From assembly GCF_963675165.1 (NCBI RefSeq), contig NC_087380.1, positions 5,154,071-5,218,070 on the forward strand: DNA of 64,000 nucleotides. Reading direction: 5' to 3'. A model generated the notes under the pieces. The model was not told where the DNA came from, made no database searches, and was given only the letters and a program-made list of their open reading frames with translations. A program made the translations under genes and the position numbers. This DNA comes from Halichondria panicea. Its lineage: Eukaryota; Porifera; Demospongiae; Suberitida; Halichondriidae. This document shows positions 4,073 through 25,465 of this stretch, piece by piece. Numbering within the stretch: position 1 is the stretch's first letter; each line of letters opens with the position of its first letter.

Positions 4073-5508
4073 TATTACATCAAAGGTTCAAGGTGAATAC
4101 ATACTTACTATTTTAAAGAATGTATTGAACAGAAATTAATTGAAAATTAATATTTATGTCCAAATATCCTAGCTACAGCTACTTTCTTCTGTAGGGCTAC
4201 CTTTTTCTTATGTAATAAGTTCATCAATTTTTGTGTATCAATACAATCAGCAATGTTCGGCTTAATTCCAGTAAATGAGGCGTGTTGTCGTCCAGGAATG
4301 TAGTCAAATACTTTGGTTTCTTTACATAGTGCGTGTACAATTGTAGCTTTATCAGTATCTAAGTTTGGGATAGTATGTGTGCCTATTGGGTTTAACACAG
4401 AATTGTCGTTATCAAACTGCCTTGTAATTGATGCAATTCCACCGACACTTTTCCCACATTGAATTATGGACTTTTCCGCAAAATTTTCCCCTAGATTGGC
4501 AACATAGTCTTTGACGGTCCGATTTAAATGTTCCATATGGAGATCTAGAGGAATATTGTGACCACTGCCACCATTAAAGTTGAGAACACGACCCCACGTT
4601 AGTTGTGAAGCGACACGAGGTGAGGCGATGGCATTAACAAGTGAAAGGGTGTAGAACGCCTCATGTTGATAATTCTGATGTTTTGCGTAAGTGAAGTACA
4701 TCAAAAACACTTTCCAACAACGTAAAATCCTTATACCATCGCCTTCCCTGATTGCATCCTTAAATTCAAGTAATAGTAGTCCATCGGCAAGGACCATAGA
4801 AGCATAGTCATGTATCCCATCCACTGCAGCCTTTTTAACTGCTTGACTAGCAGTCATTGGAGTCCAGTACTGTTTAAGAGTTTGAGGAAGCTGTCGTTGA
4901 TGTGAAGGGATCACAGAAGATAAATACGAATGATCACTATGTATCATGTGGATTTTGTGCTAATTCTAAGTCTTCTCTCTGGTTAGGTGTGTAAGAAGAC
5001 TGTGATGGTGAAAGTGGCCCACAATAGCTGTGTTCTGAAGATATTCTGGTTGAATGGGCATGAACGTCACGATCGGCTACAAAAGCGTGTGGTACAACAA
5101 ATTTTTTGACCATTTTGCTGATCTCAGCTTCAAATAATTCTTTTCTTTGTTGCAATGGAAACTTGTCGATATTCTTTGGGAATCCATTGCATGTCGCTCA
5201 TATCAGACATTCCAAAGTGATTAAGAGCAGCTGTTATCACATAACATTCTATCACTATAACCAAAAAGTCTTCGATTTCATTAACATTGTTCCTAACATC
5301 CTTTCCTTTAGCCTCACTCACGTTCTTTCGGTTTATGAGATTGCGCAGTTGATTGAGTGTTCCACCTTCTCTACTTGATCCTTGCTTATATAAGCGCTGC
5401 CACATAATCTATGAAGACAAAAGAGCACACAACTGTCACACATAATTATGCATACATCAGCAATTGGGTAAGTACATCGTGTATAAGAGTTACATATATA
5501 TCCAACTA

Positions 5509-6020: not shown

Positions 6021-7824
6021 GCTGTAACTTATTTGTGCACAATAATAATTGGTATATGCATGCTTACCGATAAGTAGTTAACCTTAGCATGCCAATCACA
6101 GGCAAAGGGTTGAAGTCCTCTTAGTGATGCCTTTGAAGTTTCGGAGTTGACTCTAATTGATAAAACTTGCCGTGCCAGTCAGCAGGTCTCCTGCAAACGG
6201 TACTTGAGAGTCTTTTGCAACATATTCGTGGAGTTCCTCCATAATCGAAATCATTTCTTCTGTTTTATTTTCATTTTTTGGCCAAGAGGAACCTGTAAAG
6301 TAAATACTCACAATAATCGTTGGTACGTGAATGCTGCTGAAACTAACGATTTTAGATGGTTTTGCATGAGGGATGTGCTTCACAATGGTGTCTTTAAATA
6401 TTCCGAAGTAGGGGATATCCCTGACAATGATTCTAGTGCAATGTACAGCATAATTTTCACAGAGGACTTGACAATCAAAGGCATGAGGTAGGTATGCAGT
6501 TGCAGGTAACGACATTAGATCTCCAATAGGTTCCAGATGGCTACACTCAACCCTATCTAAAACTGCAAAAGAGTGGAAAAAGTGGAGGGATTTACGCTGA
6601 TGTTTGGATGTCATAAATCGAGGATTAATTGTTTTGTCCAGATTGTCTCCAGAATTATAATGATGAATGTGGGCTTGTTGGGGATAACGTGTGTATTTAC
6701 AGGACTGGAGGAGCCTGTACAGCATAAATTATTAATTATCAGGGTATAATTACTACACTTACCAGATGTACAACTGCTACTTGAGAAAGTAAAAGCAGAT
6801 GAAGATTCAGTTTTTTCCTGAGAGCTATTTTCTTGGGTAGTAATGCTACTTGAATCATCATCACCCCGTTGTGGTACAGTGCTACTTGGATGAATGACCT
6901 CTTCCAATTTTTGCTTCCATTGTAATACTTGTTCATCATGATCAATTCTCAACTCCTTCACCAATTCAATAGAGCGACAATGGCTAAAAACATATCCCCA
7001 GTTGGTTTAGCCTTGTAAAGGTCTACAGAGGTAAGAATTCAAATTTGACACACATACGTATTCACTCACCAGCAGTGACCTGCGTACATAATCATTGAAA
7101 TAACAGCCTGGAGAGAACACATGCAGGTCTTTGTTTCTTGCTTTCAATAAAATTGATCCGGCAGTAGCCACCATTTTCATAGCACTTGACTTCCCACTTG
7201 GAGGGACCTTGACAGGTAAGGTGCTTTCTTTTTAAACAACTTCACCAGTAGTCTCATCCTGAAAGATTTTAGTGACTTCATGGACTTCAATCTAAACATG
7301 GCTCGAGCGGATGTTCTTTTGCTAATAACTTTACATTCTTGATTAATTCTTTTGTACCCATAAGAACAGGTTTCCTAAAAGAACGGGAACGTAATACAGT
7401 ACGTGCTGTGTAGGGACTGCTCTTGAATCTTGTTGATTCAACTATTTTCTTAAAACGACCTGGTACGGAAAAACGTCTTGGTTTAAGACAGCCCTGATGT
7501 GCAACGGCAACCTGGATTGTTGCAAGAACATAATAATCATACGCACCCAGCCTGGCTACATATATCTTACCTGAACCTTTGGGCTGCTAGAAGTTGCTGC
7601 AAATAGACTGTGCCTTGCTTGTACTACTATTTCTGTGGTTTTGCCACGACTTGAGCCTAAAGTTGAGGACCGATTGCAGAGGACGTATCTAGTAGGAACT
7701 GCCAAGCTATTACTGATTGATCTAGTAAAACTCTTTGAAATGTGAGCTGCCTTGAAGCCTCTCTCCACTTGTTTAAAACAAGCTATACAAAAGAAGTCCT
7801 TTGCATTGGAAAGGCGATAATAAC

Positions 7825-7937
7825 GAGGTATTACACTTTCCAGAATGTGGCAATGGACTCTGATAAATGGACCAACGGTAGATTACGTCATAGAGGCTTG
7901 AGAGCTTGCATGGTGGGTGGGGCTCACACAACAAGCT
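7825..7937 (+). repeat. Left TIR of the KDZ element
   Basis: About 90% identical in reverse complement to 18513-18625. It contains TGGACCAACG, the same motif that recurs in the subterminal arrays, then gattacgtcat and a gggtggggctcacac block. Confidence 0.88.
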
Positions 7938-8234
7938 GATACCACACACAGCTAGCTAGAGATATATAGACTAGTTATATCATAGATAATAGAGCACAGA
8001 AATATGGTTATATAAAGTACCCCCTGCAGCATGTACTATGTCTTGAAGCAAAAGGATATGGAAGGCTGCATGCACATTTTAATTTTTAATGCATGTCTGG
8101 TTCTACCGGGTTGCCCTACAGTTTGCCAGTTTCTTTATCCGTTTCATTGCAAACTTCTGTTCACAGGATCTACAGCAAACAGTGTTGCATGTTACACTTG
8201 CTTGATTGCATTTGCTCCAGGCATCATTAAAACC

Positions 8235-9260
8235 TGCTGGTTGGTCCATTAAGGGGCCTATTAAAATTAGGTGCATGGACCAACTGCCTGGACGACTGGT
8301 AAAAGAATTCACCCAGCTTGCATAAAGTGTTCTAGGTGGGCAGCTCATTTCAAAGCTTGCAGGGGTTCGTTGGCATCAGGAAAACCTGCTTGTTGGTCCA
8401 TAGGAGGCTGTTTCTGGAAACTAGGTGGACCAACGACCTGGACGGCAAGTAAGAAAATAGTCACGCAGCTTGAATAATGTGTTCCAGGCTGGTGTCACAG
8501 CTCATTTTTCAAAGTTTAGTGTCTCCATTGGCATCAATTAAAAGAAAACTTGCTTGTTGGTCCATAAGGTTTCCTTTTTCTGGAAATTAGGTGGACCAAC
8601 GGCCTGGACGACAAGTAAGAAAATAGTTCACGCAGCTTGAATGCATTATTTAATGTGTTCCATGTTGGTATCAGATTGGTGTCAGCTTGTTTCAAAGCTT
8701 AGTATCTCCGTTGGCATCAAAACCTGCTTGTTGGTCCATAAGGTTTCCTATTTCTGGAAACTAGGTGGACCAACGACCTGAACGACAAGTGAGAAAATAG
8801 TTCACGCAGCTTGAATGCATAATTTAATGTGTTTGAGCTCATTTCAAAGCTTGGTGTCTCCTTTGGCATCATTAAACTGGAAAACCTGCTCGTTGGTCCA
8901 TAAGGTTACCTGTTTATGGAAACTGGATGGACCAACGTCCTTGGACGACAAGCAAGAAATAGTTCACGCAGCTTGATTTCATGTATACTCATTTCAATGT
9001 TTGGTGGCTCCTTTATAGCATTGAAAACCTGCTTGTTGATCTATTAAAGTTTCCAGTTTCTAAAAATTGGGTAGACCAACAGACAACAGGGGTAAGAAAA
9101 GAGTTTTTATGCAGCTTGCATTTATTGTGTTGGTTTCAACTTTCCAAGTTTGGTGGCTACATTGGCATCAATTAAACGAGATAACTGCATGGGGCCCCAT
9201 CGTATAAGTATATCATAAAAATTATTCCTGGAAATTCGATGGACCAATCCATGCAGGTAA
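8235..9260 (+). repeat. Left subterminal array, six units of about 160 bp
   Basis: Each unit carries an inverted pair GTTGGTCCA and TGGACCAAC about 30 bp apart, then a block like agaaaatagttcacgcagctt, then a tcatttcaaagcttggtgtc block. Pairs start near 8241, 8393, 8554, 8731, 8893 and, degenerate, 9035. The same array is inverted near the right end. Such arrays usually bind transposase; that role is inferred here. Confidence 0.85.
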
Positions 9261-9510
9261 GAAAATAATTATGTTTCTCCAGTTGTTGACTACTATTACA
9301 TACAGTGCATGCTGCCTCAGTGTGGGACCTGACATCCTGTGGTTAGACATCATTCAACAGCTCCATCTTTTGAATATGTGTGTGTGGGTGTTGTTGCATA
9401 AACTTTGCTATTTGATGTGGTTGATTTAAACCTGGCTGCGGTGCTGATTATGACATCTAATGAACTCTGATCTTTCTGTTAATTCTATAGATCTAGACTT
9501 AGGCTGTATA

Positions 9511-12500
9511 ATGACTGATTCTAATGAAGAGCAGGCTGCCACAGGCAATGAACAAGATGACTTTGAATTCTCGGTGAGCAACAGTGATACTGAGCCTCAG
9601 TCTAGATCTATATATATAAAAAAATAGTGATACCATGCACAAGTGAATTATGCACCGATCCATGTCAGTCCCCACTGCCCTCCCCCTGTAGGACATAGTG
9701 GGGTTTTGGTAACCCTGAGGTGCGTGATATAGGGTGAGAATTTGAGTTCCTTAGTATACAAACTTACAACAGCAATATCCATGGAGAAAAGTGTATAGCA
9801 CATGCACGCGTGTATAGTCAAATCCCGAGGTTATGAAGTGGGGGTATATGGGAGGGAAAGAGGCGATTTGATTTCACCCAGGCTCCCAGGATATTGATCA
9901 TGCAAATCCACACTAAACCCCGACATACGTACACGGGGCGTACTGGGGCTGAAATTGATACTTCTCCTATCTATATAATTATATTGCTATTTTTGGGTGA
10001 ACAATAAAATTAATATAATTATCCCGGACCTCTATAACATCCATCAATCATATCGTCATCATTATAGAAGGCCTATGATCCTGAATCGGTTTTCTTAATC
10101 TAGCAACATTGACCATGACGATATTTGCCGTGCATGGGTATATTATATATACCCATGTATATCTATATATATATATATATAATTATTGTATCCAATGACA
10201 TGTATATGAGTAATCAGTATAATTGGTTGGGTATCACTGCATGGGTGATTCCTATTCATTCATGCAACATCTGCAACACTGATGTAGTGAGTCGCTATAA
10301 TAATGTATAGCTATATCATTGTGCATGTGCTATGTACAAATGCACTCGTGGCAATAAAACACGTCATCAATTATAGAAGGCCTATATGATCCAGTTATAA
10401 GCCACTCATGGAAACAGATTCGAGAGGCTAACGAAGATAAATATTCATTTTGCTCAAACAAGTTAAAGAAGAAGAGGAAACACTACCCTATAGTAAGAGA
10501 ATTAAAGCATAATTAGTATAAATCTATATGGGTATGAATGCGGGGTATTCGATATTGATGTACAAGCCTGATTGCTATTGCGAAATGCATGCGCATGCTC
10601 TTTCTTTGCGTTTATTTCGATTGCGAATTATGCATTCGCAGTTTGCAATAGAAAGAACTATCCTCCAATATACGGTACCATCCACAACCTATCGCTAAGT
10701 GATCACGAAGAAGTAAATTAATCCCAAGTGTGTATTATATCGTTCAATTTGTAGGTCAGATCAAGAAAATGCACCGAGTTGTTCAGGGAAAGGGAATCGT
10801 GTCAACTCAATTCAGGAGTGACCAAGAGGGCCATAATGAGCCTTTTGATGATATGACACTAAGTCAAGCCGGATACAAAGTACAGGTAATCGTACAAACT
10901 CAAACATTAAATCTCTACAATCATGCCATTGCAGGATAATGTTTCAAAGTCAGAAACAAAGCCGTCTGGAATTCCAGTGCCATTGCTGTCTGCATATCTC
11001 ATCAGTGTACATGAACAGCGTGCTCTCAACTCATTGGACAACTCTCTCCGGTCGTTTGTTATACAGGGAATCAATAGAATCGATTCCTCTTTGAATGTAA
11101 GTATATTATCTTTTTCGTGCGTATAATTGCATGCATATAATATAATTATAGAGAGATGAAGTATAATTATATTCATGTAGGTTGGTCTGTTGATCTATTA
11201 ACTTCACTGAGCATGGAGTTTCTTTTCGTCTCACGCTGTGGGTTGCACTTCAGTGATGGTATACAGTGGGTATACTGGTGCAGTTGTGATAGTGCACGTG
11301 GCCACTTACTAAATAGCTGCTCCACTTCGGTTGATTCCACATATGATGCATTCACAAGCATTGTTGGCTCTGAATGTATCCACATCGAACCAACTAGACT
11401 GATTATCCAAGAGACTGACAATATTCACAACATTACATCAGCTCAAGAATTATCAGGTACATGTCTTCTAAAAGTGCATGCACAGCTAATATTTATGAAT
11501 TATCCTCATACCCATTCAGATCATTCGTATACTTTGAATATCGAACCTCACAAGGAGGACACCTCCTACAGTATAAATGTTGGCACAGAGGTAAGTTGGA
11601 CACTATTGTGCATGCATGTACGTCTCCAATCACAACTATATAATTATAATGATTTACAGGTTGTATGCTCTATTGGGCAGGCGGTATGTACAAGAGCTGA
11701 TATAGTGGCCATGGTGTTGTACAAGTTCGTATTGATGATAAACAATTAAGGGGTCTGTACTGTTGTACATGCAAGTACAATAAACAGCACAGTTCACATG
11801 TGGACATTGTCGAGAAAGCATTGAATAGCTCGGATGAGGATAAACATGACTGCCTCAATAAAATTGCAAAAGATCTGTCTAGTGTGCAGCAGAATAGACA
11901 AGTGCATGTGCATCAGTATCGGTCCCTTAATTTCATCAAGCAGTATATATACCGTTCAATTTATCAAGTGAATTGTCTCAACAACTGGCATGTACTGTAG
12001 CTGATCGCTTCAACATTGTAAACAACACTTCTATTTTGGGCTCAGTTGACACATATTGTAAAGTGTGCAGTACGCTTACACGAGATGAAGAAGACAAGCA
12101 GGAATCTGTACGGAGCAAAATTATACTGCTCAATACAGTTATCAATGCGAATGGTAGGTGGCTTTAGAAGTATAAATCCATAACAATTATTATATTGACC
12201 AAACAGTGCATGTTAGGTATTGCTCAGGATGTAAGAAACGTAAAGAATTTGATGGCCAACTAGTAGGATTAGTGACTATGGGCAAGTTCCTGGTATCCTA
12301 TGAAGTTATGCGAGGTTTTATGCATCAATTCCTTTTGGGAAGGTAATTAATGTTGCATGTGTGTGCACTTTGACTATTAACGATACATTTCCTCTTCAGA
12401 ACAACTATATATACCCAGTATTGTGTGTTGGTTAAAAACCATGAAGATGCAGGATTCGGCAATCAGTTTAATAAGTATATGTTTACATACAATCACTATC

Positions 12501-14472
12501 GGTTGTCGTGGTATGCCTTTCTTGACCTGTTAGACATTGATTATCAAGTAGGATTTCAGTGCACTGCGTGTGGAGATTGTCCACCCATTGTTGTCATGGA
12601 TGCTACTTGTTTAGCATTCATGCAGAAAAGACCTTATGCCCTGGAAGTCCCAACTCAACGGTTCTGGAGTTCATAAAACCTCATCCCCTATCAGCTGTAC
12701 TGGAAGATAAGTGCAAATTTTCCCATGTCATCAACCACTGTATATAATGATTATATATATAATGATAGTCCTCCCTGAGCTAAGACAAAATAAATACCTT
12801 GCCAAGCATGCATGCACAGATTTATTCAAAACTTGAATCCATTTGTAGAAGGTGCCTCTCATCATAGTAATCATATATACAGTGTGGCGAAAGCTGTTTT
12901 ACTTATTCAGCAATTATTGTTGTGATAAGTTTAGGATCATGCGGACAGCTGAAAAGTTACTGTATTTATTTTCTTTCAACACTAGTTTCCATGATGGGAT
13001 ATACATCAACAACAAGACAACACGCACGCAGCTGAAGATGTTTACTACAAAGAAGTGTATAAGCCAGCATGAATTCACTTCTCTTCTAGAATTACTACAT
13101 TTGCACGCACCAAGTTTGGTCAAACTTATCACCACAATAGCTAAAGAAGTCAACGAGGCTGATACAGCTGTCTCCTGTTGCAAGCACTGGATTAATTTAC
13201 TGCAAGCTCTCAGTTCAGCATCACCTGTGTGTGCTTTGGTACCACCTACAGAAGAAGTGCACAAAATGCTAAAGGAAATGGAGTCTTCTGGCTCCTTGAA
13301 GTCAAATGCAAAAAAGATGGCCTTTCTACAAAAGGAAGCTCCAGTACTGTTCACTTTAATTGAATGTCTTCCTTCTTACCCCACTGAAGCATTGCAGCCT
13401 ATACTAAAAAGGCTTGTGGAATTATCATTAGCCCCATTTACGCAAGACTTCACAGAGTCTAGTACTGGTGACCACACTGACATTAATGATGATGATATGA
13501 TATCGTACTTTCCAAAGCTTCCTTCACTAAGAAAACGAAAGATTTATAAGGCTGACAGTTTTAAATCCTCTGTATGTACAAAAAAAAGCTCAATTAAGAC
13601 ATCCATCACTGCTACCGGGGTATTTACTCTGTATTGTCAGCATGGTAATGCTGCATGCATGATAATTATAATTATTACGCCTCATACCGTATTACTAGAA
13701 TATTTTGCAGGTGAAAAACCTTTGCGAATGAGCCAAATCAGCAGAAAATTTGACCCTTTGCGATCTAACTATTGTGTTCTGGCAAGTATTTACTAGTAAT
13801 AATTTAGGTTTTGCGGATTTTATTGATCAACCCTCGCAAAATTCGCAAATGTTTGATGCTCGCAAAACATTCTAGTAATAATTATGGTACATTAATTTGC
13901 ATCAATATTGTATAGGAATTTGCTATGGATTCCAACTGATGGAAGTTCAGGAATTCCCCAACATTCCTTTTACTATCTTATATGAACGATTCTCATCAGG
14001 TATAAATGCTATATATATCGGGATGATTATTTTTAAACTCTTCCGGCATGCAATTGCATAATATAATTATATGCCCTTGTATCTGCAGCACCTGAAGTCA
14101 TCATATACAACAATAGTTGCAACCTGCACCAATACTGCTTGAATAGAGAGCCCCCCTTTTTCAGGCACAGTCGGTTTCTAGGTCTAGTAGATCGTTTCCA
14201 TTGGCCAAATCATTCAGGTATAATTATAATAATTGTATGTTAAGTATAATTATATGATTTTAATTACCATGCACTTATATATCATACAGGATGCAGTGTT
14301 GCTTACAAAATGAGCACCTATAGACAATAATGATGCCTTGAACAGCCAGATGGTAGAGCAAAGCAATTCATGCTTGAAGAGAATCAAATCGTCACTGTCG
14401 TATATGAATAAAAGAAATTTCCTCACACATTGTGGATTTTATTTATGGTATCACAATCAGAAAAAACTATAA
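9511..14472 (+). pseudogene. KDZ-like transposase gene, about 13 exons
   Basis: Exons read by eye: 9511-9573 (starts MTDSNEEQAA), 10418-10492, 10755-10885, 10935-11096, 11181-11456, 11520-11590, 11660-12153, 12207-12342, 12400-about 12712, about 12890-13644, 13916-13999, 14089-14217, 14290-14472. Seen in order: a CxC..CxH cluster (YWCSC..ECIHIE), a GLYCCTCKYNKQHSSHV segment, a CxxC with PPIVVMDATCLAF (first acidic residue), CQHGICYGFQLM formed across a phase-1 intron, VIIYNNSCNLHQYC, DRFHWPNHSGC and NSQMVEQSNS with LSYMN. This order matches KDZ (Kyakuja-Dileera-Zisupton) transposases and HMGXB3-like animal genes. The second catalytic position, normally YD, reads YN. Frame breaks occur near 11700, 11948 (a tatata run), 12660 and 14318, so this copy is inactive. 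N-terminal exons are less certain than those from 11181. Confidence 0.8.
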
Positions 14473-16160
14473 GTATAATGTACTCACATGCATGATGGTC
14501 TTGTCATGCACTTTTTGTTTTTACAACCATGAATTTAAAATTGTGGCGTCACTTGTTCTGACTTATCATGCATGCGTTACAATAAGGGGTGACTGAAGAA
14601 ATTACACAGTGTATCTGTTAAGAAGACAGCAAAATCGAAGCCTTAACCGCTATTTTTACTTAACATTAATTGTATAGCTTGTAGTATAGCTCAGAATGTT
14701 TATTTTTTATTGTATATAATTATGTGCAATAATAATTATAGTTACTAGTTTCCCTCATATAGTTTCTCATCTGTTATTCCCCCATGCATATAATATGATT
14801 GTTTTGTGGCATCATCATCAGTCTATTGCATAGTAGACAATGTCGGTATAGTTTATATACCAGCATGCATTGAAGCATGCTCATATACACATTATACAAG
14901 TACATAGCAATCAACGTTTGTGAATGCATGAACACAATCATGAGTGCGTGTCAGTGTGGTGTACTCACCTGCAGATCTGTATTAGCAACCCTTTTACTCC
15001 TTCTGACGCCGTGAGATGTCTTTTGGCTGCAGTATATAGGTACACATGAGGGAGTAGCCAAAATCATTTTTTTTACCTTTGTTGAGTGGAGTAGCATGAT
15101 AACAGGATCAATCCACGTAATTCAGCAGTGTTTACAGACTTTTGCAGGTGCTTTGATGCAGGTAGTCCAGAAAACTGATCAATTGTGTTAGTGTAAATAC
15201 TCACGAATGCTTTTACATATACCATCACGTACCTTGACCATTGTCATAATAATTATTATGTATCACATGAATGCCACATTCAACTCCATCCTGAGCGGCC
15301 ACCTAATACAATAAACATTCGTGAAATAAAATCCATCACGAAACAAGGAGTGCGTGGAGTATCCAAGAAGACAAAAAAAATTGCATTTGGGGCAACTAAG
15401 CAAGTCAATGATTTAACTTTTATGATTACCCCATACATGTGCACTCTATAAATTATATACCTTCACACACTGTATATCCATCTTTGCAGGTGATCGAATG
15501 CACATGCTTAAGAATTGATTAATGTCTTGTGCATGCATGTTGCCTGCTCAGTACGTAAAAGGTGAGAGAATTGGCGACTGGGAGTCAAGAACATAGACAC
15601 TACAGAAAAGGAAAATTGTACTCACATTAGTAATAACCTTTTTGACAGACCAACAAAACATGTAATCCTATCACACAATATAATGCATCCATGAGGAGCT
15701 CACATGCATGTATGGGCACTGGTCGAATTAGACTCCAGAAACTCAATCACATGCATAATAACGTACGTTTTCTTTGGGAGATTGACAGCAACAAGAATCC
15801 AGTGCCAGCCTCTATAATAATTATGATGTATACGTGGGAACAATGAAATTCTCATAAACACAATATGAAAGTGAATTCAGTGTGACAACTTATACCTTAC
15901 TCTACACGGAAACAGAATCCTTAAATGTCATTGTAGATTTCAGCATACAGAGTCGCAGTGAGGCTTTCATTCAGTCTGATGTATAATAGAGTCTGTAGAT
16001 GCAGCTGTATGATGAGTTTTTACGACAGTAGTCTGACAAATTGTGTAAACAAAATAATAATTATAGACTTGAATTAGTCGATATCATTGTGATCATCACA
16101 GCTGTAAAAGTGTACATACCAGACTGTCGTGTGTTACTTATTACCTTACCTGTCGTATAG
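14473..16160. other. KDZ element 3' non-coding region
   Basis: No exon recognised. AT-rich, with many catgca and ataattata runs. It separates the transposase 3' end from the right subterminal array. Confidence 0.55.
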
Positions 16161-16164
16161 GCTG

Positions 16165-17545
16165 TTGTCTATCCAATTTCCGGCTGGATATGATATTCTG
16201 ATAGACCATGCAGGGAACAGGTTTTTGAGTCCAACAAAGCCACCATGCATGCAGCATTTGAAATGAGCTGATACCCACCTATAAAAGAATGAATGCAAGC
16301 TAAGCTGCATGAACTATTTTCTTACCTGTCAGTGTCGTCCAGGCCGTTGGTCCACCCAGTTTCCAAAATAGAAAAGGTTATGGGCCAACGTCCAGGTTTA
16401 TTAGTATAACTGCATGATGCCAACGGAGAGCCACCAAGCTCTGACAACCAACTATGCAGGAACACATTAAAAGAATGCTCAAGCTGCGTGAACTATTTTC
16501 TTACTTGTCGTCCAGGCCGTTGGTCCACCTAGTTTCCTTAATTGATGCAAACAAGAGACACTAAGCTTTGAAATGAGCTGACACCAACCTGGAACACATT
16601 GCATTCAAGCTGCGTGAACTATTTCTTACTTGTCGTCCAGGCCGTTGGTCCACCTAGTTTCCAGAAGCAGGAAATCTTATGGACCAACGAGCAGGTTTTC
16701 TAGTTTAAAGATGCCAACGGAGACACCATGCAAGCTTTGAAGCTCACACCAACCTGGAACACATTAAAAGAAAGTGCGTGAACTATTTTCTTACTTGTCG
16801 TTCAGGCCATTAATTGTCCACCCAGTTTCCAGAAACATGAAACCTTATATGGACCAACGAGCAGGTTTTCCAGTTTAATGATGCCAACGGAGACACCATG
16901 CAAGCTTGCTCACACCAAACTGGAGAACACATTAAAAAGAATAAATTCTAAGTGTGCGAACTATTCGTCCAGGCCGTTGGTCTATCCAGTTTCCAGAAAC
17001 AGGAAACCTCATAGACCAACAAGCAGGATTTCCAGTTTATAATGATGCAACGGAGACACCAAGCTTTGAAATGAGCTCATAATCACACCAAACTGGAGAA
17101 CACATTAAAAGAATACATTCAAAGTGCGCGAACTATTTTTTTACTTGTCGTCCAGGCCGTTGGTCTATCCAGTTTCCAGAAACAGGAAACCTCATAGACC
17201 AACAAGCAGGATTTCCAGTTTATAATGATGCCAACGGAGACACCAAGCTTTGAAATGAGCTCATAATCAAACTGGGGAACTTGTCGTCCAGGCCGTTAGT
17301 TTCCAGAAACGGCCTCCTGTATGGACTAACGAGCAGGTTTTCCTGATGCCAACGAAGACATCAAGCTTTTAAATGAGCTCGGATACGGCTATAAAAAAGA
17401 ATGCATGCAAAGTACAATGTAAGTAAACTATTTTCTTGCTTGTTATCCAGCCCGTTGGTCCACCCACTGAAATAGGAACTTTAATGGACCAACGAATGCA
17501 TTTTCAGGTTTACCTGATACCAACGGAGCCATACCGAGAATGTTT
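16165..17545 (-). repeat. Right subterminal array, about eight units
   Basis: Reverse-complement counterpart of 8235-9260. GTTGGTCCA-type motifs lie near 16340, 16517, 16642, 16976, 17158 and 17455, and partner TGGACCAACG-type motifs near 16681, 16851, 17010, 17193, 17320 and 17482. Units are 130-180 bp; several are partly deleted. Neighbouring units near 16.97 and 17.15 kb are almost identical, which suggests recent unequal exchange. Confidence 0.85.
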
Positions 17546-17745
17546 AAACACTTGTACTTTGTGTAGGGAGTGAAAGGACGACACCAAGGAGACCTGGACC
17601 AGCTGTTCCATACCTTTCTTAAATTGTTGCTTCAATTATAGATATATAGTAGAGGAATCGACAGACATGTTTCGAGAGACTACTCCCTTACTTCTTCTAC
17701 TATCTATGCTTCAATCAACAGTAGATCTAGTCTACATGCTGCAGT

Positions 17746-18452
17746 CAGGGGCGGATCCAGGGGTGATTTTGAGGGGCTGAAGCCCCCCCCCTTTTGAAAA
17801 AACTACCGCTAGTCTGAGGTTACAACAATTTTGCCACCAACCTTGTTACTTATGCATCTGCATGCATGTAGACTCACTGACTTAATTAAGAGATGCTAGA
17901 CAATAGCCAAGTCTAGCTACTAAGAGTATAAAGGATGTAGGCTAGCTAGCTGGACATGCATACTATACTAGCTAGTTAGCTAGAACTAATAAAGTGCATA
18001 AGGTCAACTATTGCTGTTGCTGAGTCAGCTCCTTGTGCAATGTTTTGTAGCCTCGATCATATCCCAGGCCTCTTTTCCTAGGCCTTGTGAAGGAGGCTAT
18101 TGTGCATGCTGTTGAGCTGCAACATATGGAGCAGATCTCAGACTTTTTCAGCTAGTTGCAAGGAAGCAGCCTTATCTCCTCTCACTCTCAGTGCAGTCTG
18201 GGTAGGCATTGTGGTTCTTTCATGTACCAAGAGTGCATGAATGTAGATGTAACATCTACAGTATACATCCTTTTGTTGATTAGAACGAGTTTTTTGTATT
18301 AACTTTTTCATATTCAGTATTCACTTATTAATATGACAGTTCAAAGGTAAAAGTGTGTAAAAAGCAAAAAATTTCTCCCATACCCACCCTCGTACGGGGC
18401 TTCACCCCTTTCTACTAGCCCCCCCCTTTTATTTTTCCTGGATCCGCCCCTG
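17746..18452. mobile_element. hAT-like non-autonomous element, nested
   Basis: Ends are CAGGGGCGGATCCAGG and its exact complement, a form common among hAT termini. Both flanks carry GCAGT, possibly the remnant of an 8-bp duplication. No transposase is present. Near its middle (18050-18101) a 52-bp stretch carries both end types of the MULE-like TAGCCTC family. Confidence 0.75.
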
Positions 18453-18512
18453 GCAGTGGATACTTGAGCGTCTAGCACTGTACTGTGTTGTACGTGTGCA
18501 TACTGCATGGGG

Positions 18513-18625
18513 CTTGTGTGTGTGAGCCCCACCCACCCTGCAGGCTCTCAGCCTCCTCATGACGTAATCTACCGTTGGTCCATTCATCAGAGTCCATTGC
18601 CACAATCTGGAAAGTGTAATAACTC
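18513..18625 (-). repeat. Right TIR of the KDZ element
   Basis: Inverted partner of 7825-7937, followed directly by the TAATAAC duplication at 18626-18632. Confidence 0.88.
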
Positions 18626-18632
18626 TAATAAC

Positions 18633-19544
18633 AGGAAGGTTTCCATATGCTGACTCAACGAATATTGTTGCTGACTCAGCACTCTATATGCAATTTTAAA
18701 TCAGCTAGCTAGCTAGACATGTACGTAGTTCTAGTGAGGCAGAGCTCATGTCAATGATTCTTCCAGAGACTAGACTCATGCATATACACTACTGTGGACT
18801 AGACTCATCTACTTGTAAGAAGGTAAAAGGTATATAAAAAGGAGGAACCTCAGTCTGATTATTACACTTTATCAATACCTGCTTCTATACAACTACAGGT
18901 AGTACTGTACTGTATGTAGGTGGCTGTTGATTATGTCAAGAATTGCCAGCATGAACTCGTGAGCATCTTCTTGGTTTATACCTGTTTGGAGCGTGGCATG
19001 ACTATAGCCGAATGTCTTTTTCTATCGCTATATAGGGCTGGACAGAAGGGTTATGGCTGCCAGTGATGCATCTCAATAAAAAAGTAAGCAGCTTTTTTTT
19101 ATTCTAATAACAATTATCACTTTTCAGCTGAGAGTTTCCAGAGGAAGAAACGTGGGATACATGCAGCCTCACTATACATGATAACTTTTCACTTCACTTC
19201 ACTTCCCTGAACATAATTTCTGTTACAAGTTTACATCGAATGTGCATTAATAGTCTCTGTACCATGACTTTGGTATATGTGGTATATAATCAATGAAACT
19301 TGGAAGCAAAGCATGTGTTTCAAATGTTTATGCATGCCTCCTCCAACATGCAAGATGATCAACACTGAAACCATAATTATGAACCACTAACTCAGCCATG
19401 ATGTATTTAATAGGATTGGCTTACATACAATAGCACTAGGGGCACTCCAGAGGGCCAGGGAGCACTCTTGTGCTCCTGATAGCACAAGAAAATATATAGA
19501 GGGCGATCATAAAAAAAATTCTTAATAATTCAATAAATTTATAT
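18633..19544. other. Flank of the KDZ insertion, no gene resolved
   Basis: The first about 25 bp continue the DUF6589 5' exon on the minus strand (tgttattatcgcc joins across the insertion). Beyond an in-frame stop near 18660 no further exon was recognised. There is a TATA-like tatataaaaa near 18833 on the plus strand. The outer end of the RecQ/DUF6589 element must lie in or beyond this stretch but was not found. Confidence 0.4.
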
Positions 19545-19598
19545 TAGTACAACCAGTAGGTTAGTACAACCAGTAGGTTAGTACAACCAGTAGGTTGT
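19545..19598 (+). repeat. Short tandem repeat, 18-bp unit, three copies
   Basis: Three consecutive copies of gtacaaccagtaggtta directly before the first unit of the large tandem array. One copy also occurs at the start of array unit 3, near 22370. Confidence 0.9.
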
Positions 19599-20421
19599 AC
19601 ATAGGATTGACAGTGCAGTTGTGTGTGTTTTCAATTATTGCACAAATTTTGACTCGTGTTTAGACTGCTCTATTTCTGCAGGGAAGGGCCACAGCAAGAA
19701 ACTGAGTTGACAGATAGCTTAGTTAGCCTTTTATCTGTCTAAATGTGTGAAATTATAGTCAATGAATATTCTCATGCATTACTATTGATATTTGAAAAAT
19801 TCCACTATTTTCATATTTCACCGCGTTTCGTCTGACTGACTAAGTAAGTAAGTAAGTTAGTAAGTAAGTAAGTAAGTAAGTAACTTTCTTGGAAAGCATT
19901 TCCTCCTTGTACAGACATGTTCAGAAGATTCTAGATACAGCCTCTAGTCGACTAGAACCCGGACCATGGGCGTTTTTCTCAGAATTTCCTCCGCTTCCAA
20001 GAGGCAGATGACCTCTCAGGCTCCACTTTTCTTACCTACGCAATTCCGCCATCTTTAAATGACTGCCACAGCAACGCACATGGCAACTTATGAGATGGGC
20101 GTGGCTGGTTAACCGGCTGTGACATCGATCGGTACACAAACAGTCCCTAGTCCTTTTCTCCATTCTCAACTCAGGTATGCTACTGGCTAGATCTACCATA
20201 GGCCTCCAATGCTTTTGCACTTTGAAGTATACACTCCAGTATTTAACATGCATAGATAAATGAACACTGTAATAAGAATTATGTGTTCATATATTCCAGT
20301 CTGGATGGCCATGTCTTCTCTTCTCTTCTTGAACTTCTCTTGCTTCTTGACATTCCTCTTAGGCATTTCACATTTCATTATTGAAGAGTATAAAAATACT
20401 GCTGTACTGAAAAAGAAAGGG

Positions 20422-20914
20422 AATCAAAACTAAAAAACATTTGCAATGTGAACGTTGCTAGGATTGCCAGGAAAAGAAAAGCGCGAAAAAGCGAAGAAAC
20501 AAGAAATTCGGCGAGTGCATAACTCCAATCCGTTACAATGCCATGAACATGTACAGCCGAGTGGCCTACTGTTGATAATGATTTTAGAATCAAAATACAA
20601 GTTGGGTAAAAATGAACGGCGAATAACTGAATTCACAATCATCCACCCACACATCCAACACTTGCATGTTTGCTCAACACTGTAAGGGAAAACATCTTGC
20701 AAAAAATTCACTATAATTATATGATAAAAATTACTGAAGGATTGGCCAGGAAAAGCACAAAACGAACAAAAAATTGAAACAGTACATGTGAATGAAGTTG
20801 TAACGGATTGGAGTTATGCACTCGCCGAATTTCTTGTTTCTTCGCTTTTTCGCGCTTTTCTTTTCCTGGCAATCCTAGCAACGTTCACATTGCAAATGTT
20901 TTTTAGTTTTGATT
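20422..20914. mobile_element. Long-TIR MITE, copy 1
   Basis: About 493 bp with inverted ends of about 113 bp starting AATCAAAACTAAAAAACATT, containing aagcgcgaaaaagcgaag and ending near aactccaatccgttacaa. It forms the end of tandem unit 1. Confidence 0.9.
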
Positions 20915-21877
20915 GTACATAGGATTGACAGTGCAGTTGTGTGTGTTTTCAATTATTGCACAAATTTTGACTCGTGTTTAGACTGCTCTATTTCTGCAGG
21001 GAAGGGCCACAGCAAGAAACTGAGTTGACAGATAGCTTAGTTAGCCTTTTATCTGTCTAAATGTGTGAAATTATAGTCAATGAATATTCTCATGCATTAC
21101 TATTGATATTTGAGAAATTGCACTATTTTCATATTTCACAGCGTTTTGTCTGACTGACTGAGTAAGTAAGTTAGTAAGTAAGTAAGTAACATTCTTGGAA
21201 AGCATTTCCTCCTTGTACAGACATGTTCAGAAGATTCTAGATACAGCCTCTAGTCCACTAGAACCCGGACCATGGGCATTTTTCTCAGAATTGCGTTCGC
21301 TTCCAAGAGGCAGATGACCTCTCAGGCTCCAATTTTCTTACCTACTCAATTCCTCCATCTTTAAATGACTGCCACAGCAACGCACATGGCAACTTATGAG
21401 GTGGGCGTGGCTGTGACATCGATAAGCACAAAACCTTCTTTCTTCAGCTCAGCTCTCCATTCTCTCACTTCAGGTATGCTATTTATGCTAGACACATGCA
21501 CTGACTGGATCTACCATAGGCCTCCATGCTTTTGCACTTGGAAGTACATCTACAGTATAAACATGGCTGCCATCATAGATAAATGACTGAATAAAAATAC
21601 TGAATAATGTTTATTCCAGTCCTGTCTTCTCTTCTTGAACTTCTCTTGCTTCTTGATGTTCCTCTTAGGTATATCACTTTGAAAAGAAGGCCGGTGAAGG
21701 AGCCTCAATTCCCTGAGTGAAGTGTGGCCTGGGATCGAGACTATTGAGGAGTATAATAATACTTCTGTCCAACGACCACTTATATATTTAATATCTTCAA
21801 CAAGATTACGATGACAAATTAATCAACGTCACATTTATCTTATCATTAATGTACTACTGTAATGAAAAAAGAAAGGG

Positions 21878-22369
21878 AATCAAAACTAAAAAACATTTGC
21901 AATGTGAACGTTGCTAGGATTGCCAGGAAAAGAAAAGCGCGAAAAAGCGAAGAAACAAGAAATTCGGCGAGTGCATAACTCCAATCCGTTACAACGTCAT
22001 GAACATGTACAGCCGAGTGGCCCACTGTTGATAATGATTTTAGAATCAATATACAGGTTGGGTAAAAATGAACCGAGAACTAAGAATTCACAATAATCCA
22101 CCTACACATCCAACACTTGCATGTTTGCTCAACACTGTAAGGGAAAACATCACAAACACATTATATAGCTTGCTTATAACAATAAAAATTACTGAAGGAT
22201 TGGCCAGGAAAAGCACAAAAAAATATTGCTTGAAACAGTACATGTGAATGAAGTTGTAACGGATTGGAGTTATGCACTCGCCGAATTTCTTATTTCTTCG
22301 CTTTTTCGCGCTTTCTTTTCCTGGCAATCCTAGCAACGTTCACATTGCAAATGTTTTTTAGTTTTGATT
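21878..22369. mobile_element. Long-TIR MITE, copy 2
   Basis: Same ends as copy 1, with a slightly diverged centre. It is followed by a gtacaaccagtaggtt unit before tandem unit 3 begins. Confidence 0.9.
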
Positions 22370-22625
22370 AGTACAACCAGTAGGTTGTACATAGGATTGA
22401 CAGTGCAGAGTGTGTGTTTTCAATTATTGCACAAAATTTGACTCGTGTTTAGACTGCTCTATTTCTGCAGGGAAGGGCCACAGCAAGAAACTGAGTTGAC
22501 AGATAGCTTAGTTAGCCTTTTATCTGTCTAAATGTGTGAAATTATAGTCAATGAATATTCTCATGCATTACTATTGATATTTGAAAAATTGCACTATTTT
22601 CATATTTCACCGTGTTTCGTCTGAC

Positions 22626-24700: not shown

Positions 24701-25465
24701 CAGAGATACAAAAGAAAGGGGATTGGAAACGACCGCCCACGCCCTATGTAAAAGGACTGACATCCGGTGAAGCACTCCGTGTAATTATTGCGCTCGCAAA
24801 TAATTACATGGAGGACTGCGCTACGGTTTTGTATCCCTGGTTTCTAGCTCTCCTATCCACTAGAGATCACTCAGGGCCTGGGAGATACTTGAGAGAAGTA
24901 AGCTTATACCACTGACAAGCTCTAAGTCCGTTGTCTTTACTCTGTTTCCAATTTTTTTGAGTTTAGCTTGAATTACTCTATGTCAACTTTTCTCTGTCCC
25001 TCCTATGAAGTCAAAACAGCAAAGGACATTGCTTGACTTGGTTATTATGTATCTAAGTGCTACATAGAATGGCTTCATGCTATAAATAAGCTGTACTGTT
25101 CATAAACGTTTGCAGTATAGTCCTTCAAACTGCTTTAGTATACTTTTAGACACACCACGGGCCTGTCCCTCCTACGACTTCATAGTAAAGGCTATTTCTT
25201 CTTGCATAGCATTTATTTGTCTAGTAATAGTGGCTGCGTGGCTTAGTCGACTTTTTAGAGCTAAATTCTCTTTACTTTTTAGAAAAATCAATATTAAAAA
25301 TGATCAATTTCACTGTTTCTATGTACAGCACATTGTAGAGCAGTCAAGACAGGTAATGAGCATGCTGACTATAAATATAATCCTTTGTAGTTTTAGCCAC
25401 GCCCTATAACGTGGAATGCTTCACGCAAAAATTTCGTTTCCAATCCCCTTTCTTTTGTATCTCTG
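24701..25465 (+). mobile_element. 766-bp TIR element, 7-bp duplication, copy B
   Basis: Opposite orientation to copy A and nearly identical to it. Flanked by the perfect duplication ATATTTC (24694-24700, 25466-25472). In unit coordinates this target is only about 17 bp from the target of copy A. Confidence 0.93.

Follow-up and report, generated by a model that had tools for sequence, protein, structure and literature searches.

The segment at positions 7825-18625 of a 64,000-nucleotide stretch of Halichondria panicea DNA (G000:C4:5154071-5218070; hereafter the window) is one copy of a transposon family, 10.8 kb long with a nested insertion included. We propose that this element is very probably a KDZ-type DNA transposon that moves by cut and paste and belongs to a young family of few copies, whose subterminal arrays would be read by the transposase and whose copies would have been moved in trans. 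The family has defined ends, 7-bp target duplications, uninterrupted counterparts of its insertion sites, further copies, arrays with a recurrent motif, and broken genes. The genome searched comprises 131 Mb in 39 contigs, and its Wnt genes (10 matches) agree with the metazoan host named in the first-pass annotation of this DNA. Copies are named by contig, C4 being the window copy.

Boundaries, copies and insertion sites

The element is flanked exactly on both sides by the 7-bp sequence TAATAAC and is bounded by inverted terminal repeats of ~113 bp (Table 1), as the first-pass annotation had described. The outer 67 bp of the two ends are 96% complementary; aligned with bases 1-112 of the left end, the right end shows 91% identity. 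Both termini begin GAG, within the presumed cut-site pattern GAG[GT]TATTACAC. A genome-wide search with the left end, of the kind the annotation had suggested, returned 30 end matches that group into 14 loci, and these other copies bear out the boundaries. The first 20 bases of the element occur at 27 places with at most 2 mismatches, compared with 2 for the backward control; one of the 27, on C15, is taken as chance. Both ends are present at 12 of the 14 loci. The other two, C1a and C8d, have one end only, which the annotation had regarded as a pattern that would speak against a complete element; we take both to be truncated copies. The coding stretch has full-length matches in 10 copies and a two-piece match in C12, and shorter remains of it lie at other places. 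By end-match coordinates, C17, C39, C9, C10a and the first of the C8a copies span 10.3-10.6 kb, and eight internal 5-kb regions differ from one another by 0.06-1.97% substitution divergence.

Perfect 7-bp duplications, differing in sequence from locus to locus, flank six of the 12 two-ended loci (C4, C12, C8b, C39, C17 and C13, the last with its right part inverted after insertion), and C1b has a duplication with one mismatch. Empty sites were sought with the joined flanks of six loci (C4, C12, C8b, C39, C17 and C1b), and uninterrupted sites were found for three of them. Those for C12 and C17 are near-identical (98% and 96%) and lie on the copies' own contigs, the C17 site being without one of the seven bases. 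The site for the window copy, on C1, crosses the junction, yet with only 16-17 bases on its left side. Repeats matching the joined flank of C39 extend 8 bases beyond the junction and resume 47 bases on, and were not counted as uninterrupted.

Subterminal arrays and a candidate binding motif

Long subterminal arrays, also noted in the first-pass annotation, are real and lie inverted relative to each other. A 10-mer, TGGACCAACG, is found once in each terminal repeat and recurs through the arrays in inverted pairs, for the most part with a spacing of 37 bp. Exact occurrences number 14 in the element versus 1 in the other 53 kb of the window; with at most one mismatch, the counts are 23 and 5, where 60 first-order Markov sequences give an expectation of 0.33 in the element. 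Across seven copies, with at most 2 mismatches allowed, neighbouring sites no more than 80 bp apart are arranged minus-then-plus in 87 of 87 cases and spaced at 37 bp in 56. Nine of the 87 pairs, spaced at 3 bp, are weak matches that overlap, and given the near identity of the copies the cases are not independent. Six array units, of which two are identical, form hairpins on folding (z -4.4 to -7.4). Some units are changed on both arms (GGTCTA..TAGACC) and a half-changed form is present in C10b, a hint, no more, that the symmetry of the units is kept.

We propose the TGGACCAACG sites as candidate binding sites for the transposase. The arrays could instead go unread by the transposase, as amplified repeats or as sites for host proteins, with the 10-mer spread from the end repeat; one right-hand stretch was in fact also called as a tandem array. 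Such an origin appears doubtful to us, because the motif stands in both ends and neighbouring sites hold one orientation and, mostly, one spacing.

The transposase-like gene and its kinship to KDZ

A multi-exon, transposase-like gene is readable on the plus strand at ~9511-14472. Splice sites were placed by eye at GT/AG, and exon limits are approximate. The multi-exon KDZ-type transposase of the first-pass annotation is upheld as a readable gene, and its likeness to KDZ is supported only after exon joining and comparison with another KDZ open reading frame (ORF) of the same genome; its frame, however, is broken in the window copy. Profile searches with single exons were near silent (best KDZ E 0.11, CxC4 E 0.13). 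Once joined, the middle exons match CxC4 (PF18717) at 27.7 and 28.9 bits versus a cut-off of 26.9, and two reversed-sequence controls gave no CxC4 match. The joined last exons match KDZ (PF18758) at 26.2 bits (E 7.8e-6), borderline to the cut-off of 26.6.

Because the KDZ profile was matched in one of eight joined variants, the last exons were compared with an ORF that runs without interruption in a different KDZ family of this genome (locus L060, KDZ 32.6 bits). The alignment of the two is collinear across YD..C, VD.FH..H and N...EQ. BLASTP gave E 2e-6, compared with 0.12 for the reversed control, and the Smith-Waterman score of 76 was reached by 0 of 2000 shuffles, which scored at most 53. 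At the level of sequence comparison, then, the predicted coding region shows kinship to KDZ, and this rests on CxC4 above its cut-off, the borderline KDZ-profile match and the collinear in-genome KDZ ORF. Three acidic residues of the core would be catalytic, Asp, Asp and Glu presumably having that role here. The first Asp (VVMDA) was placed by eye; Asn at the position of the second is confined to the window copy.

The first half of the gene yielded no convincing domain, and one match below its cut-off (E 0.0056) is taken as chance. The coordinates of the 53 KDZ-profile matches listed for the genome place none of them in the element's own family; one of them lies in an uninterrupted 208-residue ORF at C10:3936823-3937311. 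A genome-wide protein search for a diverged relative gave 53 matches at E 0.01, every one of which falls, by its coordinates, within a locus of the element family. The CxC4 profile found nothing in this genome and likewise nothing in 14 control genomes, so that this search is uninformative. A relative of solved structure was sought, with a single match at E 0.24.

Broken copies and probable mobilisation in trans

Lesions relative to the majority were surveyed over the stretch 11521-14470 in 11 copies from 10 loci (C8a counted twice), and none of the 11 is free of frame lesions. In the window copy there are four, in addition to its Asn for the second presumed catalytic Asp. C12 has a single lesion, within an AT repeat, and its coding stretch is additionally split by an insertion. 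A one-base shift in the last exon is common to six of the 11 copies, and five of these six each have their own perfect duplication and were therefore inserted separately. The shift is absent from C9, C10b and C1b; the C8a copies are without that stretch. The 648 codons compared show 64 amino-acid changes and 5 stops; silent changes number 20, where 24.9 would be expected without selection, and no purifying selection is evident on the coding stretch. From common lesions in separately inserted copies, together with this lack of purifying selection, we infer that in some copies the breakage preceded the spread, and that these were moved by a transposase made elsewhere. Mobilisation in trans is our best reading, and a genome protein search did not find the source of such a transposase.

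It is also conceivable that the copies were intact at insertion and acquired their lesions later, the common ones through gene conversion or recurrent slippage, in which case no trans-acting transposase would be needed. Many of the indels are short and repeat-like, as slippage would have it, and the one-base shift of C39 is missing from its close relative C9. We consider this course of events unlikely, however, because C10b and C1b, which sit at unrelated sites, have eight lesions in common and C39 and C9 have three, and because amino-acid changes are as frequent among common substitutions (26 of 32) as among private ones (43 of 57), stops included.

With mobilisation in trans as the preferred reading, we propose the following mechanism. 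A transposase of the DDE type, made elsewhere and containing a Cys-rich region like CxC4, would bind a copy in trans, both at its terminal repeats and at its subterminal arrays (inverted TGGACCAACG-like 10-mer pairs). It would then bring both ends together and cut at GAG[GT]TATTACAC, and insertion would proceed with a 7-bp stagger.

Several observations weigh against this proposal as a whole. Five of the 12 two-ended loci (C9, C10a, C10b, C8a and C8c) are without a duplication. No intact transposase was found in the genome searched, and the absence of purifying selection lends the gene model itself no support. The first half of the gene is tentative, and a TGA at 11698 stands in the frame used and is altered by no substitution in eight aligned copies. 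In the profile checks on joined exons that the first-pass annotation had called for, CxC4 was reached by two of three joined variants, the failing one having X at its junctions, and KDZ was reported, below its cut-off, for the single variant noted above. A 42-residue fragment gave E 0.023 with the KDZ profile, and hhalign with the L060 ORF gave E 6.6e-4 at a probability of 27%, on what are nearly single sequences. Some of the common lesions fall within short AT repeats, where they could arise more than once, and C9 is without the common one-base shift despite its closeness to C39.

Comparison with known transposons

Zisupton elements (KDZ; fish and other animals, fungi, algae) resemble the family in having terminal inverted repeats and a many-exon transposase, KDZ in Zisupton and KDZ-like here. 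They differ in their 8-bp duplications, as described by Kojima 2025 (PMC12730594), compared with 7 bp here, and in that the KDZ profile barely reaches the present family. Dileera (KDZ; rust fungi), which has a KDZ transposase as the element very probably does, makes 8-bp duplications in the same description (PMC12730594); the duplications we observe are exactly 7 bp at six of 12 two-ended loci. Kyakuja (KDZ; mushrooms) does make 7-bp duplications, but its ends are given as CA..TG without inverted repeats (PMC12730594), whereas those here are inverted repeats of ~113 bp beginning GAG. The combination of long inverted ends and 7-bp duplications is not that of any of the three KDZ groups in the account of Kojima 2025 (PMC12730594); this separation from Zisupton, Dileera and Kyakuja is one of described ends and duplications.

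In the brown alga Ectocarpus, giant KDZ elements are, like the window copy, over 10 kb long, with nested insertions and an often broken transposase gene (PMC12477816), and the authors of that account inferred mobilisation in trans (PMC12477816). Their host is an alga, and the word 'subterminal' is absent from the main text of the paper (PMC12477816). For the arrays, the comparable system is the CACTA/EnSpm superfamily, in which the soybean element Tgmt* has subterminal direct and inverted motifs forming stem-loops that, in the published account, are held to bind an element-encoded protein (PMC2613891). CACTA elements have CACTA ends and a 3-bp duplication, and membership is rejected by the GAG ends and 7-bp duplication of the present element, which at most may work like CACTA. 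That the element belongs to another DDE superfamily, its likeness to KDZ due to chance or deep common descent, draws on the borderline KDZ profile and the CACTA-like arrays (PMC2613891), but is very improbable given CxC4 above its cut-off, collinearity with the in-genome KDZ ORF, and ends and duplication unlike those of CACTA.

We raise, as a tentative possibility, a fourth and animal KDZ lineage, which would combine long inverted ends and a 7-bp stagger with palindromic subterminal arrays that a CxC4-containing transposase reads, would persist as broken copies moved in trans, and would have been missed by exon-by-exon KDZ profiles. The first-pass annotation had valued the element on the ground that KDZ is best described in fungi. 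This is a weak reason, since the first characterisation of Zisupton came from fish, and related hits are reported from lancelets, sea stars, mussels and nematodes (PMC9297572).

Layout of the window copy, flanking DNA and other loci

The coordinates of the window copy are collected in Table 1. Described earlier as complete at 10.8 kb, it is complete in outline, but its gene is broken and its length includes a nested insertion of 707 bp. This insertion is absent from C39, C9, C17 and C10a, and the matches of C8a, C13 and C1a likewise skip the corresponding window segment. An inverted 202-bp stretch is, among the copies compared, private to the window copy, the orientation being opposite in C10a, C10b, C13, C17, C39, C9, both C8a copies, C1a and C8b.

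Table 1. Features of the window copy and its immediate flanks (window positions).
Feature	Position	Strand	Remarks
Target duplication, left	7818-7824		TAATAAC
Left terminal inverted repeat	7825-7937	+	~113 bp
TGGACCAACG site, left end	7868-7877	+	motif search
Left subterminal array	8227-9179	+	units with inverted 10-mer pairs; extent per repeat list
Gene, first part	9511-11456	+	tentative exons 9511-9573, 10418-10492, 10755-10885, 10935-11096, 11181-11456
Cys-rich region, CxC4 match, first presumed catalytic Asp	11660-12708	+	exons ~11660-12153, 12207-12342, 12400-12708, after 11520-11590
Long exon, start tentative	12849-13644	+	no domain recognised
KDZ core, second presumed Asp (Asn in window copy) and Glu	13711-14472	+	exons ~13711-13781, 13916-13999, 14089-14217, 14290-14472
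Inverted 202-bp stretch	14607-14808		orientation compared with ten other copies
Right subterminal array	16148-17512	-	inverted relative to left array
Nested insertion	17746-18452		short inverted ends; GCAGT on both flanks
Right terminal inverted repeat	18513-18625	-	~113 bp
TGGACCAACG site, right end	18573-18582	-	motif search
Target duplication, right	18626-18632		TAATAAC

The uninterrupted site on C1 shows that the window element is inserted near the end of another inverted-end element of ~1 kb, whose sequence corresponds to 18626-19512 (90% identity). Removal of the window element would therefore not rejoin a DUF6589 reading frame, contrary to the first-pass annotation: the best joined ORF has 96 codons, of which the far side contributes 7, with no Pfam match at E 0.1, and the right flank belongs to the ~1-kb element. 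DUF6589 itself is matched at 4150-4959 on the minus strand (E 4.9e-25). Elsewhere in the window, 6614-7006 (minus strand) has a weak P2X7-domain match below its cut-off (E 0.0037), and ~1-kb repeated units with inverted stretches can be seen by eye at ~19500-22500.

At C8:6064138-6082987, two tandem copies differ by 0.06%, the second beginning at element base 1674 directly after the right end of the first, which looks like aberrant transposition. At C8:1769103-1778872, both family ends lie 9.8 kb apart around an interior mostly unmatched to the element, with one array reversed; the right end and flank of this locus recur at C8:2513666. A domain search found no domains in the first half of locus C8c. 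Insertions by at least three unlike elements split four of ~27 terminal repeats (the right repeats of C12 and C10b, and both of C1b). Both ends of C1b were hit at the same base by elements alike only in their ends, which poses the question of a hot spot or targeting. A 776-bp element with 32-bp inverted ends is present at window 24701-25465 and at C1:7420652-7421427, with 40 scored matches of 97-100% identity; copies are found in one of the terminal repeats of C1b and in the interior of both C1b and C12.

Implications

This family joins features known separately from different KDZ groups, long inverted ends and 7-bp duplications, and it offers a testable candidate DNA-binding motif for a KDZ transposase. 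It also shows how such families evade annotation, as its own absence from the 53 listed KDZ-profile matches illustrates.

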